Assembly (NCBI RefSeq): GCF_006538365.1
Contig: NZ_BJKN01000002.1
Span: 882,411-946,410, forward strand
Origin: Moorella sp. E308F
Lineage (GTDB): Bacteria > Bacillota > DSM-521 > Neomoorellales > Neomoorellaceae
Direction: 5' to 3'
Length of the DNA stretch: 64,000 nucleotides
This document shows positions 17,302 to 61,420 of this stretch, one piece after another (the first letter of the stretch is position 1; every line of letters begins with the position of its first letter). A program made the position numbers and the translations under genes. A model generated the notes under the pieces. The model was not told the DNA's origin. It saw nothing but the letters and a program-made list of their open reading frames with translations, and did no database searches.

Positions 17302-17343
17302 ATGTGTTTTCTGCCTCCATGAAGGATAAGGATTATGTAATCC

Positions 17344-17949
17344 TGGTGGGTGGCAGCTGGCCGGATAAATGTTATGGCTTAGGTCCAGTAGGTTTTCCCG
17401 GCACCCTACCACGCGTCGCCGCAATGGCGGTTTCCCTTTAAAGGGTGCCCTGCGCCGTCGCCGGAGGCAGGACTGGATTACCACTTAGCGCATACTTTAA
17501 TCCCCGGCCAGCCTTACCGGTGGTAAACAGTCTAGGAGTTTTCCTCGACAAGCCCCGCCATCTTCTAGCCTCTTTTGCAGTAGTGGTTTCCGCTATAGTC
17601 AAGAGGTCTTCGGCGAAGACCTTGACAGGCGCTTAACACCCGCATCCACCACTACCGCTCAAGGCAGGCTACGCTGCAGCCAGCACCCTCCGTACCGACT
17701 GCAGGTTTCTACCCCAGGCCATAGTAGTTGTTCCTGCCGCAGGAACTTTCCCACGCACCTGGGTCTCCACGGAGGGAGGGTCCACGCCTACATGCCATTG
17801 TAGATCGCCCCCCCTCCTTAACTCCCAGTACCAACCCCCGACTGGGCGTCGACAGCCAGCACCAGGAACTTCATCGGTGTGCCCTTGACGGATTTTTAGG
17901 CCCGTCTTCAAAGATGGTGGTCTTGACTAGAATACTGCGCCACCCACCA
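17344..17949 (-). ncRNA. ole: OLE RNA (ornate, large, extremophilic)
   Basis: An ~606-nt gene-free, GC-rich, strongly structured region between ispA and oapA. Its two ends can pair perfectly over 11 bp: on the plus strand GCCACCCACCA (17939-17949) and TGGTGGGTGGC (17344-17354). Inside are perfect hairpins at 17604-17622 (AGGTCTTC-GGC-GAAGACCT, extended by TCAAG/CTTGA) and 17730-17746 (GTTCCTG-CCG-CAGGAAC). Length, position in the ispA-dxs operon and the downstream membrane protein match OLE RNA, known in extremophilic Firmicutes including Moorella and forming a membrane ribonucleoprotein involved in stress responses. I identify it by context and structure, not by a covariance search. Confidence 0.85.
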
Positions 17950-17985
17950 ATAGGCTAAGCAAAAATTTTTCTGCTGGTAGGATGT

Positions 17986-33292: not shown

Positions 33293-33481
33293 CAGTCTAC
33301 CTCCAAGTAAAAAGCCGCTTGCTGCTCGATTATTAACAGGAAGGGCCACCTTCAACCTTGCGGCTTGGGGCCCAAATGGAGTGCCCCTTAGTTGCTCTAT
33401 ACTCATTATACAGTTGCCCTCGCATCTTTCTATATGCTGATCAATTTGGCAACGCTCCAAGAACACAGCTCATTGGGGGGA

Positions 33482-35734
33482 CTATTGTTTGTTACCGCCG
33501 CGGTTGCACGTGGCGTTGTCCAGTATATGCCATCCCGCCTGCTTATCCAGAACGGTCGTTGCCCTCCCCGCCATGTATGACCCGGCTCTGGTCAGAGCGG
33601 CCGCCTCAGTAAAAAAAGTATTTCGCCAAGCAAAGCTATCAGGGTGCCCCCCCCCCCCCGTTATAGCAATATTTTCCATTTCCTCTTGCGGAATCCGTAA
33701 AAATGCCTCTACCACCCGGGGGTCAAACTGCCGGCCTGCACACCGTTTCAATTCCTCATATGCCTCCTGCGGGGTAAATGCTTCCCTGTATGGCCTGGCA
33801 GAGGTCATGGCGTCGTAGGCATCGGCCACACGAATAATGCGCGCCAGAAGCGGGATCTCCTCTCTTGATAGGCCAGCCGGATAACCCCCGCCCCCATAGT
33901 CTTCGTGATGGTGCCGTACGGCTGCAATGACCGCCGCTGGGAACCGGGCCGGTTCCAGGATCCTGGCTCCTACTTCAGGATGACCCTGCATCTCTTTTCT
34001 TTCTTCCGGGGTGAGGGGGCCCGGTTTAAGAAGAATGTCCTCTTGTATGCCAATTTTGCCCAGGTCGTGTAACAGGCCGGCCATATAAACATGTTCCTCC
34101 TCTTCAGCACCAAGTCCCAGCATACGGGCGCAGGAGCGTGCCCATTTAGCTACCCGGATGGAATGCCCCCTCGTGTATACGTCCTTGGCCTCCAATGCCG
34201 CTGCCAGCGCCTGTACGGTACTCAGGTAGTACTCCCGCAGCGAGGAGTAAAGGCGGGCGTTTTCCAGCGCCAGCCCGACTTGAGCTGCAACGGTACCCAG
34301 GTACTCAACTTCTTCTTCCGACCAGCGGCGCGGTACAGGAGAATAAACCTTCAATGTACCCAGTATCTTTCCGCCTGCTTTCACCGGCACCACAATCAGG
34401 GCTCGCATCTCAAGCGCGTAGTAGGGCAGGTACCTGCCAGACCCGTCAGCGGCCAGGTCCTCCACTACCACGGCTTCCCCTTTTTGGAGCACTTCACCCA
34501 GCAAGTTATCCTCCGGCCGAACGCGGGCGACCCTCGCCTGCAACTTCTGGTTCATACCCAGGCTGGCCCTCAGCACCAGCTCGCCGGTATTTTCGTCAAG
34601 CACCCGCAGAGCACACCACCGTGCACCCAGCACGTCCCTTACACTTGCCAGGGCTGATTCAAGCACTAGATCGACATCAAGGTGGCTCGATAACACCTGC
34701 CCTACTTCGATCAGCCGTTCCAGCATTGCTGCCCTTTCCTGCACCTTCCGGAAAAGCCGGGCATTTTCCAGGGCCAGCCCCAGAATGGTGCCCAGGGTGG
34801 TCAAAAAGACGGCTTCCTCTTCGGTGAAGCGTTGCCCCCCTGGCTTGCCTGCTAAGGTGAGTACTCCCATCACCTTGCCGCCAGCTTTAAGAGGTATTGC
34901 AACTGCCGGCAGCTTTTCTTCGGGCGTGCTTTCTCGGGGACGGCTGTCAAAGTGCGCGGCGATAGCTTCCCGCCCAACCGCGGCTATTATTTCCCCTGCA
35001 GGAATAACCCTTAATTTGTTGTCCGGCTCCATGGTAGCTGCTACCTCAAGAGCTGCCGCCCCTGGTTCCGCTTCGCCCAGCATCACCACCGACCCGCTGG
35101 TGGCACCGGTCAATTCCAGCACCGCCTGAAGTCCCTTCCGGGCGGCTTCGGCCACCTGCAGGCTGCCGGAAACTGTTTTGCTGAATTCAAAGAGAGCACT
35201 GAGTTCGTCTGCCTTTTTCTGCTGTTCCTGCTTGGTGTATATCAGCTGGGCCAAAGTTTCCGTTACTGCCCGTATCATCTCCGCCGCTTTCCGCAGCCGT
35301 TCTTCAGACCACAAAGGTACCCCTTGGGCCGCTACCCAGAGCTCTTCCCGGTCTATGCCTGTCTCCCGGGCAAGTTCGGCTACTTCCTCTTCTGTGAGCG
35401 GCTTAAGCGCTACGCTGCCGCCCACCAGTACCGCTACTGTTTTTCCTGCTACCCGGAGGGGTACTGCCACATGTACCAGCCCGGCATGGCAGGTGTCGAG
35501 GACTGCTCTTCCTGCGTCCACGGCAGCCCTGGCAAAGATTACACGTGAAGCCCCACACTTGGTTCTTCCTTCTGGATTAGCATTAAGGAGGGCGCAGAAA
35601 GAGCATAGGTTGGAGGTTTTGGTGAGGAGTTGTCCGTCCGGATAGGTGACCGAAGCTGCCAGCCCCAGGGCCTGGCTCATGCTCTCTTGCAGTCTTTGTA
35701 AGCCGATGTGTTTCAGTTCTTCGTAGTACTGCAT
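33482..35734 (-). CDS. PocR-GAF-GAF-HD-GYP phosphodiesterase with G13 tract
   Basis: A 750-aa sensor-phosphodiesterase. An N-terminal PocR-type ligand domain (cysteines in NLCSFCALLN, TKCGAS and DTCHAGLVHVAVPL), two GAF domains (about 190-345 and 360-520) and an HD-GYP domain (LLHDLGKIGI, HHHEDYGGGGYPAGL) that hydrolyses cyclic-di-GMP. Start ATG 35734 follows GAGAGG. The conserved part ends near residue 690; immediately after it a run of 13 G (33647-33659) encodes GGGG and leads into a non-conserved ~54-aa tail. One more G would give a TGA stop three codons later. Confidence 0.85.
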   Translation of the reverse strand: MQYYEELKHIGLQRLQESMSQALGLAASVTYPDGQLLTKTSNLCSFCALLNANPEGRTKCGASRVIFARAAVDAGRAVLDTCHAGLVHVAVPLRVAGKTVAVLVGGSVALKPLTEEEVAELARETGIDREELWVAAQGVPLWSEERLRKAAEMIRAVTETLAQLIYTKQEQQKKADELSALFEFSKTVSGSLQVAEAARKGLQAVLELTGATSGSVVMLGEAEPGAAALEVAATMEPDNKLRVIPAGEIIAAVGREAIAAHFDSRPRESTPEEKLPAVAIPLKAGGKVMGVLTLAGKPGGQRFTEEEAVFLTTLGTILGLALENARLFRKVQERAAMLERLIEVGQVLSSHLDVDLVLESALASVRDVLGARWCALRVLDENTGELVLRASLGMNQKLQARVARVRPEDNLLGEVLQKGEAVVVEDLAADGSGRYLPYYALEMRALIVVPVKAGGKILGTLKVYSPVPRRWSEEEVEYLGTVAAQVGLALENARLYSSLREYYLSTVQALAAALEAKDVYTRGHSIRVAKWARSCARMLGLGAEEEEHVYMAGLLHDLGKIGIQEDILLKPGPLTPEERKEMQGHPEVGARILEPARFPAAVIAAVRHHHEDYGGGGYPAGLSREEIPLLARIIRVADAYDAMTSARPYREAFTPQEAYEELKRCAGRQFDPRVVEAFLRIPQEEMENIAITGGGGHPDSFAWRNTFFTEAAALTRAGSYMAGRATTVLDKQAGWHILDNATCNRGGNKQ
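33647..33659 (-). repeat. 13-base homopolymeric G tract in the HD-GYP gene
   Basis: A run of 13 C on the plus strand (G on the coding strand) near the 3' end of the coding sequence. Such tracts are prone to slipped-strand length change. Length 13 keeps a 54-aa tail, 14 stops almost at once, and 12 gives another short tail. Confidence 0.9.
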
Positions 35735-35809
35735 TAATTTTCCTCTCTCCATGAAAGGAACCCCATACCTCCTGCTGGGAGTGCTTGCCAAAAAAGGCCT
35801 GCTTGCCGG

Positions 35810-36330
35810 ACCGGTAGTTCAGCAGGACTGTTAAATGCCGGCTCTTCGGCGGCCTTTCTTTCCCTCCTTGTCCGCGTACATCCCTGGCGTCGGCCACTGC
35901 GAGCAGGGCATCTACGTCTTTCCCGTCTGCAGGAAACCGCGCCAGCCCCACCGACAGGCTCAAGGGTATCTCCGCACCAGAAAACCGTATCGCTTGCAGA
36001 TGCTTCTCAAGCCGGGCCCGGAGTGTCTCCAGGCGCGGCCCTTGGGCTGCGCTTCCCTTCCTGGGCCTCTTTAGCACGCTCGCCGCTGAGGTAAAAAAGG
36101 CCCGCTGGTTGTATAACTGGTAAGCGGGTCGCTTTCGGCCTCGCGCTGGTAACGGCATGAAGCCCGGGCCATTTCCATCATCGACTATAGGACTAAAGAG
36201 GTGCCGGTGTTGGAAAGAATAAGTTCGCTCACTATTCTTTTGAGCAAAGGAGAGAAGCGGAAAAACTCTCCCAGTAGGTCCAGGGAAATACCGGCCAGCA
36301 CCAAGGGCAGGCCGATAAAAAGCACTAGTA
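35810..36330 (-). pseudogene. Decayed membrane-bound GGDEF protein
   Basis: Between the HD-GYP gene and the REC gene, fragments of one GGDEF protein are visible in order on the minus strand but in different frames. First comes a hydrophobic N-terminal segment (LFIGLPLVLAGISLDLLGEFF) ending in TAG near 36185. Next, in a different frame, is RYQREAESDPLTS, then after a frame change YNQRAFF. Last is the C-terminal part IPLSLSVGLARFPADGKDVDALLAVAD. The central GGDEF motif region is missing. The stop, frameshifts and deletion show it is inactive. It may share ancestry with the neighbouring REC-GGDEF-like gene. Confidence 0.7.
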
Positions 36331-36405
36331 TAACTTCCCCTTAAGCATAACACTGCCCGTTGACCGGAGGGCTGAGAGCCTGGACTGCGGCATAAGTCCT
36401 GGGAT

Positions 36406-37218
36406 CTACGTGTCAGATGCTTGCTGCTGGGCTGGCGCACCCGGCTCTTTTTTCTCCCAGCTCTCTTTAAGGGCAACTTCGGCGTAGGCGAAAAGCTCTT
36501 CCCCATCCTTCCCGTTGTCGGGATATACCGCAATCCCGTAGCTCCACGTACCAGGCAGGAAACCCTCCAGTTTCGTTGTCACCACCTGCGCGCCTTCTTT
36601 CCCCGTATGAGGGAGAATCAACGCCAGCGTACTCTTGCTGAGCTCTATGACGGTGTCTATCTCGCGCAGGCGCCGCCGCGCCTGCCTGGCGCATTCCCCA
36701 ATCTTTCCCTTGCCCAACCTTTCAGACCGGGCCAGAACCAGGGCTACATTTAGCCCGCCCCTGCTCGCCCGGTTGATCTCATTCCTGAGTACTTTATGCA
36801 GCAGCTCCGCAGGGGCTACTTCTCCCCTGGCGCCAGGTCCTATCAGTTTCTCTACGCGGCGCACCAGCTCCTCGACCGAGTAGGGCTTGCAGAGGTACTC
36901 TACCGCCCCCAGATCTATCGCCTTCTTGACCACGGTGACGTTGCTCTCGACCGTTACCACCATGACCGGAACGTACCGATACTCCGGCAGGCGTTTGAGG
37001 TTCTCCAGCACAGCCAGGCCGTCCATTCCCGGGAGGTGGATGTCGAGAATCACCAGGTCGTACGGTTCTACTTTTCCCCTGGCCTTAACCAGCGCTTCCT
37101 GGCCGCTGGCGGCTTCGTCCACCAGGTAGCCCTTCTCCTCCAGTGTTCTCCTGGAGGAAAACCTGGTGAGGGTAGAGTCTTCCACCAGCAGGATGCTCTT
37201 TTCCGGCAAGGCTAGCAA
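36406..37218 (-). CDS. Response regulator with degenerate GGDEF domain
   Basis: A 270-aa protein. The receiver domain (about 8-125) has LLVEDS, the phospho-Asp in LVILDIHLPGMDG and Lys in YLCKPYS. The remainder has the fold outline of a GGDEF domain (NVALVLARSERLG, LREIDTVIELSKSTLALILPHTG, SYGIAVYPDNGKDGEELFAYAE), but the catalytic GG[DE]EF is replaced by ELSKS, so it should not make cyclic-di-GMP and may be a binding or partner module. TTG 37218 follows AAGGAGGG. It heads the island. Confidence 0.8.
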   Translation of the reverse strand: MLALPEKSILLVEDSTLTRFSSRRTLEEKGYLVDEAASGQEALVKARGKVEPYDLVILDIHLPGMDGLAVLENLKRLPEYRYVPVMVVTVESNVTVVKKAIDLGAVEYLCKPYSVEELVRRVEKLIGPGARGEVAPAELLHKVLRNEINRASRGGLNVALVLARSERLGKGKIGECARQARRRLREIDTVIELSKSTLALILPHTGKEGAQVVTTKLEGFLPGTWSYGIAVYPDNGKDGEELFAYAEVALKESWEKKEPGAPAQQQASDT

Positions 37219-61227: not shown

Positions 61228-61420
61228 GCTTTCCCTCCAAAATATAAATAGCCACCGGCAACAGGGAAAGATAGAACTCTTCCCCGGCAGCCCGGCGGCC
61301 ATGACAGCGTCTACAGGCCCGTAGCTTTGCGCCCCCGGCTTTCGCCGGGTTTGCCTTGAACGAGGATATATGGACATTTATTCGTCATAAAAAGGCAAAT
61401 TCCTGCTAATCCTGGCGCCG

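Follow-up and report, generated by a model that had tools for sequence, protein, structure and literature searches.

Replication slippage at a G13 tract near the 3' end of a PocR-GAF-GAF-HD-GYP gene probably switches a hydrophobic, and probably membrane-binding, tail of the encoded protein on and off. This would be a case of C-terminal phase variation, to which we give a probability of about 0.72 from the comparison of sequences. Among relatives, the position of the tract is conserved, its length is variable, the register of the tail behind it is random, and near-identical copies of the gene differ by one base in the tract. An initial annotation of the window (the whole 64-kb stretch of DNA analysed) had seen here the layout of a phase-variable switch on a c-di-GMP enzyme, a view that the comparison of relatives favours.

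Location of the tract and architecture of the gene

The only run of at least nine identical bases, whatever the base, in the window is a C13 on the + strand, found exactly where the initial annotation had placed its G13. In the 3.06-Mb genome, assembled in 10 contigs, there are three runs of at least 9 G, including this one. The features of the gene are as follows.

33482-35791, - strand: PocR-GAF-GAF-HD-GYP gene as assembled, 769 aa
35243-35701, - strand: PocR sensory domain (Pfam PF10114, E 4.7e-39, residues 31-183)
33713-34207, - strand: HD-GYP (HD_5) domain (Pfam PF13487, E 1.4e-40, residues 529-693)
33647-33659, - strand: G13 tract (C13 on the + strand), proposed slippage site; orthologous runs G6-G20
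33592-33645, - strand: conserved alternative tail TLIALLGEILFLLRRPL with its TGA, open at G12, G15 or G18 only
33636-33641, - strand: TGA TAG double stop, met at once with G14 (short form)
33482-33646, - strand: unconserved 54-aa tail of the assembled G13 form

By our reading, the likelier start of the gene is the ATG at 35752-35750 or that at 35734-35732. Two GAF domains (Pfam) also lie N-terminal to the tract, which begins 18 codons beyond the HD_5 match, towards the 3' end of the ORF and, as the initial annotation had it, just past the conserved HD-GYP domain. The Pfam profile PF13487 scores 139.2 bits on this protein against a cut-off of 27.2, and both LLHDLGKIG and the GYP motif are present. 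The consensus of the latter is HHExxDGxGYP. The window protein and its closest relatives have HHEDYGGGGYP, and a further relative (L104) keeps the D (HHEDYDGGGYP). The protein is a predicted c-di-GMP hydrolase, the activity of which is not certain because G replaces the consensus D in this motif; judging from the motif, the substitution may alter metal binding.

With regard to the neighbourhood, the - strand at 35800-36400 carries a remnant with a broken frame (SVGLARFPADGKDVDALLAVAD), which by eye looks like the last part of a GGDEF domain and lies between the PocR gene and a response-regulator gene (36406-37218). Among named species, Moorella mulderi and M. stamsii are the closest relatives. 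In M. mulderi (L049, 3825-4706), a 293-aa ORF (MSLEQAK...) stands between the HD-GYP and response-regulator genes. The window keeps just a few residues matching it (33300-33480, - strand), so that a deletion is likely. Elsewhere, the window holds a full-length OLE RNA (17334-17959, - strand; Rfam RF01071, 514.9 bits).

Three C-termini set by tract length

Reading the tract in silico at different lengths gives three ends to the protein, in accordance with those announced by the initial annotation. At the assembled G13, four glycines (GGGG) are followed by 54 aa. With G14, GGGGAP is followed by a stop at the third codon, leaving 2 aa beyond the glycines; this would be just another state of the proposed switch. 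With G12 or G15, the 17-aa tail TLIALLGEILFLLRRPL is read and then a stop. Each run length thus gives one of three C-termini, which is one mark of an SSR-mediated C-terminal phase-variable gene. A model of the conserved tail, described below, matches TLIALLGEILFLLRRPL in the window's own genome with an E of 6.9e-11. Comparison of homologues, which the initial annotation had proposed as a check, identifies the 17-aa form (G12/G15) rather than the 54-aa form as the natural C-terminus. At the assembled G13 the conserved frame is missed, and the window is therefore in a tail-OFF state.

Conservation of the run among relatives

Homologues were drawn from the 41 nearest genomes, the class (22 genomes), 398 genomes sampled from the phylum, one family (20 genomes), a second class (113 genomes) and named contigs, and the DNA beyond the HD-GYP domain of each was read in three frames. 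Before counting, duplicates (L049-L055, L134), N-masked loci (L056, L146) and loci in which the end of the HD domain was not found (L145, L148) were left out. A run of G6-G20 occupies the same site in 32 of the 43 distinct loci, representing 29 genomes and at least 11 families, which is not chance. This recurrence at one site in 29 genomes also led us to reject a poly-G read artefact. Among the other loci, three (L090, L142, L143) lie on contigs that stop in or at the tract and lack the tail, and the run is absent both from four loci near the clade (L096, L098, L136, L150) and from four paralogues of about 50-57% identity (L027, L149, L152, L153). Run length differs between close relatives or copies, as phase variation requires, and spans G11-G13 in five genomes of one genus.

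In the four loci near the clade, loss of the run is accompanied by loss or decay of the tail. In L136 (G415), the run is gone, the tail stays locked out of register and its nearly invariant Glu has become Lys, possibly a decay that followed loss of the switch. These four loci, having neither the run nor an intact tail, are what could be invoked for an ordinary neutral C-terminus, in which a dispensable tail decays and the run is a mutational accident. That the run has stayed in place in at least 11 families speaks against this, as does the selection on out-of-register tails documented in the next section, and we consider such an explanation barely credible.

A tail selected in and out of register

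In 29 of the 32 loci, the run is followed by a consensus tail, GGG-TLIALLGEILFLLRR, equalled in none of 200 shuffles in each case. Its form varies with lineage, being TLIALLGEILFLLRR in Moorella, TLLSLLGEILFLFKQVR in Desulfofundulus and TLITLLTEVLCSLAV in G372. The three remaining loci (L139-L141) carry a diverged VATLLFLP-like tail scoring below 20; they are not counted in the 29, and their frames, assigned by eye, are 1, 1 and 0. Searched against 19 genomes, the tail model gave no match below E 1e-3 outside these loci, which led us to reject a mobile module that would also be attached to other genes. Viral contigs gave 0 matches by pattern and none by protein.

Relative to the HD-GYP frame, 8 of the 29 loci carry the tail in register. 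Of the others, 14 have it displaced in one direction and 7 in the opposite one, and all three offsets occur even inside one genus. In M. stamsii the run is G13 and the tail is in register, whereas in M. mulderi the run is G12 and the tail is out of register. When frame labels were placed on a tree of 43 rows, 23 changes were needed, against a mean of 23.9 for shuffled labels; register changes therefore outpace species splits. This scatter decides the case of programmed ribosomal frameshifting in a fixed direction at the G run. Two overlapping frames joined by a slippery run are indeed the setting for such a mechanism, but a constant offset would be expected of it; variation of the offset between relatives was looked for and found (8/14/7), which excludes this explanation but for an extremely small probability.

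Protein-level selection acts on the tail, also where it is out of register. With the caution that pS is close to saturation, pN/pS in the tail frame is 0.37 over the 29 loci and 0.38 over the 21 out-of-register loci. The two remaining sense frames give 0.60-0.62 and 2.2-2.3, and among the antisense frames the lowest value is 0.48-0.51. Permuted columns reached the tail-frame value in none of 1000 trials nor, when the out-of-register loci were thinned to ten, in any of 2000. Furthermore, codons of the tail frame vary least at their second position and most at their third, whether or not the tail is in register (L136 is included in this entropy count and excluded from the 29 used for pN/pS). A tail that is selected and yet unreadable in most sampled genomes must be read in some cells or transcripts. 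An immediate stop in the other frame was seen in 27 of the 29 loci, where 22.5 would be expected (p 0.016, without correction for kinship); we do not claim selection for this stop, which is mostly a by-product of the amino acids of the tail.

Change of tract length in DNA

Direct evidence of length change comes from a genome assembled in one contig (G311), where a PAS-GGDEF-GAF-GAF-HD-GYP gene (the PAS-GGDEF part named by eye from the translation) is present in two copies. Over 2923 bp, flanks included, 4 mismatches and 2 one-base gaps separate them. One of the gaps falls in the run (G15 versus G14) and puts the tail in register in one copy; the other lies inside the tail of the in-register copy and alters its end. 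A third paralogue in this genome has G20. The register is also altered by indels outside the run, as illustrated upstream of it by TATAACG in the window and TATACG in M. mulderi.

These observations bear on the explanation that the initial annotation had held to be the main alternative, namely an error of sequencing or assembly, the true length being always in register (here, G12 or G15). Long G runs are difficult to sequence, three contigs (those of L090, L142 and L143) break off in or at the tract, and in three genomes (G048, G306, G372) tail fragments begin at contig ends. However, length error predicts that short runs are read correctly, and all seven loci with runs of at most 9 G are out of register, which speaks against it. 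So are 6 of the 10 loci whose genomes are assembled in no more than two contigs, and the one-base differences upstream of the run shift the register as well. As a general account, length error is thus largely refuted by the short runs and by the one- and two-contig genomes, and we judge it very unlikely. Some of the seven loci with short runs may be frozen OFF. In two of them, L097 and L144, the run is G6, and the tails are still recognisable, though such runs would slip little.

A different possibility, and the main rival of our reading, places slippage on the G run in transcription (RNA polymerase) or translation (ribosome). Every cell would then contain a mixture of all three C-termini irrespective of its DNA length, with the tract fixing the ratio of the forms rather than a heritable state. 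Slippage at this level would account equally for a random register combined with a selected tail, and poly-G of 8-20 would be a plausible slippage run. On the other hand, the one-base difference between 99.8% identical copies indicates that the DNA length itself is fast-moving, the scatter of register among close species points likewise to fast change in DNA, and poly-G is listed among phase-variation repeats in the available part of the GeneTack study (PMC3711429). We regard slippage at the RNA level, and with it a ratio-setting role of the tract, as rather unlikely, though more probable than the other alternatives.

Properties of the tail and proposed mechanism

Across 14 residues, the tail is hydrophobic (GRAVY 1.4-2.2) with a hydrophobic moment of 0.41-0.54, and basic residues usually follow the hydrophobic stretch. 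These features suggest a short membrane-binding helix rather than a full span, a role proposed from composition. AlphaFold models the tail as a helix at low confidence, with pLDDT values of 49.6 for the full in-register M. stamsii protein and 58.4 for its HD-GYP part with the tail.

The G tract, we propose, acts as a simple-sequence contingency site of long standing, the length of which would be reset by slippage in replication, a mechanism that we infer for living populations. This length would determine whether the protein ends in the conserved hydrophobic helical tail (Gly linker and TLIALLGEILFLLRR), at once, or in an unconserved extension, the catalytic domain being produced in each of the three states. 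The tail would most likely change the site or the partners of the enzyme, membrane targeting being our first guess, and cells of a single clone would then vary in their control of c-di-GMP. In practical terms, the annotated C-termini of these proteins hinge on an unstable run and are not to be trusted, and the conserved tail offers a direct handle for testing what the switch does.

Long G runs near c-di-GMP riboswitches

Runs of at least 9 G are rare: the 12 genomes counted have between 1 and 17 each. In eight genomes, 8 of 55 such runs are located within 700 bp of a c-di-GMP-I aptamer compared with 0.16 expected, a contrast for which a Poisson value overstates the case because some of the eight are orthologous. 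Several of these riboswitch-side runs belong to unannotated small ORFs composed of a start codon, 4-17 codons, G12-G23 and a conserved frame, IICLxCKYLE or YNYHNPRLLEINLLYILFLL, which is found in and out of register. One of them (L189; relatives L167, L184, L176, L169, L170, L171 and L188) is in the window's genome, at G000:C1:784280 (G000:C1:782500-786000, run at 1781-1794), about 243 bp before an aptamer. The third run of this genome is putative, a C15 adjoining the start of a contig, within its first 40 bases (L190, G000:C4:1-3500). The window itself contains a c-di-GMP-I-GGC riboswitch aptamer at 61282-61364 on the - strand (Rfam RF03167, 73.9 bits).

It is conceivable, at somewhat less than even odds, that the ancient PocR-HD-GYP tail switch and the riboswitch-side small ORFs with G12-G23 form a lineage-wide poly-G contingency system acting on c-di-GMP. 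If so, clonal cells would differ heritably in both making and reading this second messenger, and a repeat-driven second-messenger switch would operate in environmental anaerobes, which have no host to evade.

Comparison with known systems

Phase variation has been described mostly for surface structures and in host-associated bacteria. The switch proposed here would place a base repeat on an intracellular signalling enzyme of apparently free-living anaerobes, where c-di-GMP bet-hedging could be studied without a host. In Streptococcus agalactiae, repeats reportedly control cell-wall anchor motifs (work attributed to Janulczyk, 2010), a similar arrangement in that the repeat governs attachment of a C-terminal anchoring motif; the proteins there are surface proteins with a wall anchor, whereas here a signalling enzyme would acquire a possible membrane-binding helix. 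Our searches of the PMC literature brought up no earlier account of a repeat switch for Moorella, for PocR or HD-GYP genes or for any c-di-GMP enzyme, nor of one that several families share together with its tail.

Stochastic switching of a c-di-GMP phosphodiesterase has a precedent in a Clostridia-like Gram-positive, Clostridioides difficile, where PdcB is phase-varied by promoter inversion (PMC9286219; reviewed in PMC11868660). According to the available portions of these sources, it is the expression level of PdcB that is switched, whereas here a base run changes the end of the protein. The same 2025 review mentions, in its available part, an epigenetic case of phosphodiesterase phase variation in E. 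coli (PMC11868660). With regard to the repeat, the pili of Bifidobacterium breve offer a G11-G12 run, the heterogeneity of which was measured by deep sequencing (PMC9187656). There too, the length of a G run joins or splits two reading frames, but the product is a surface pilus, the run lies between the signal peptide and anchor ORFs and, in the text available from that report, no enzyme tail is involved.

The closest parallels in form are the homopolymer-mediated C-terminal phase variation named in Helicobacter canadensis (PMC2823697) and the candidates for C-terminal phase variation listed in Neisseria gonorrhoeae (PMC5320596). In these, as in the present gene, a homopolymer near the 3' end gives three C-termini and the body of the protein is always made. 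As far as the accessible parts of both papers extend, the sets are candidate lists from a single species each and concern other gene products. The present case differs in that it concerns one signalling gene, which has retained both the run and a conserved tail in at least 11 families, with measurable selection on the tail while it is out of register.
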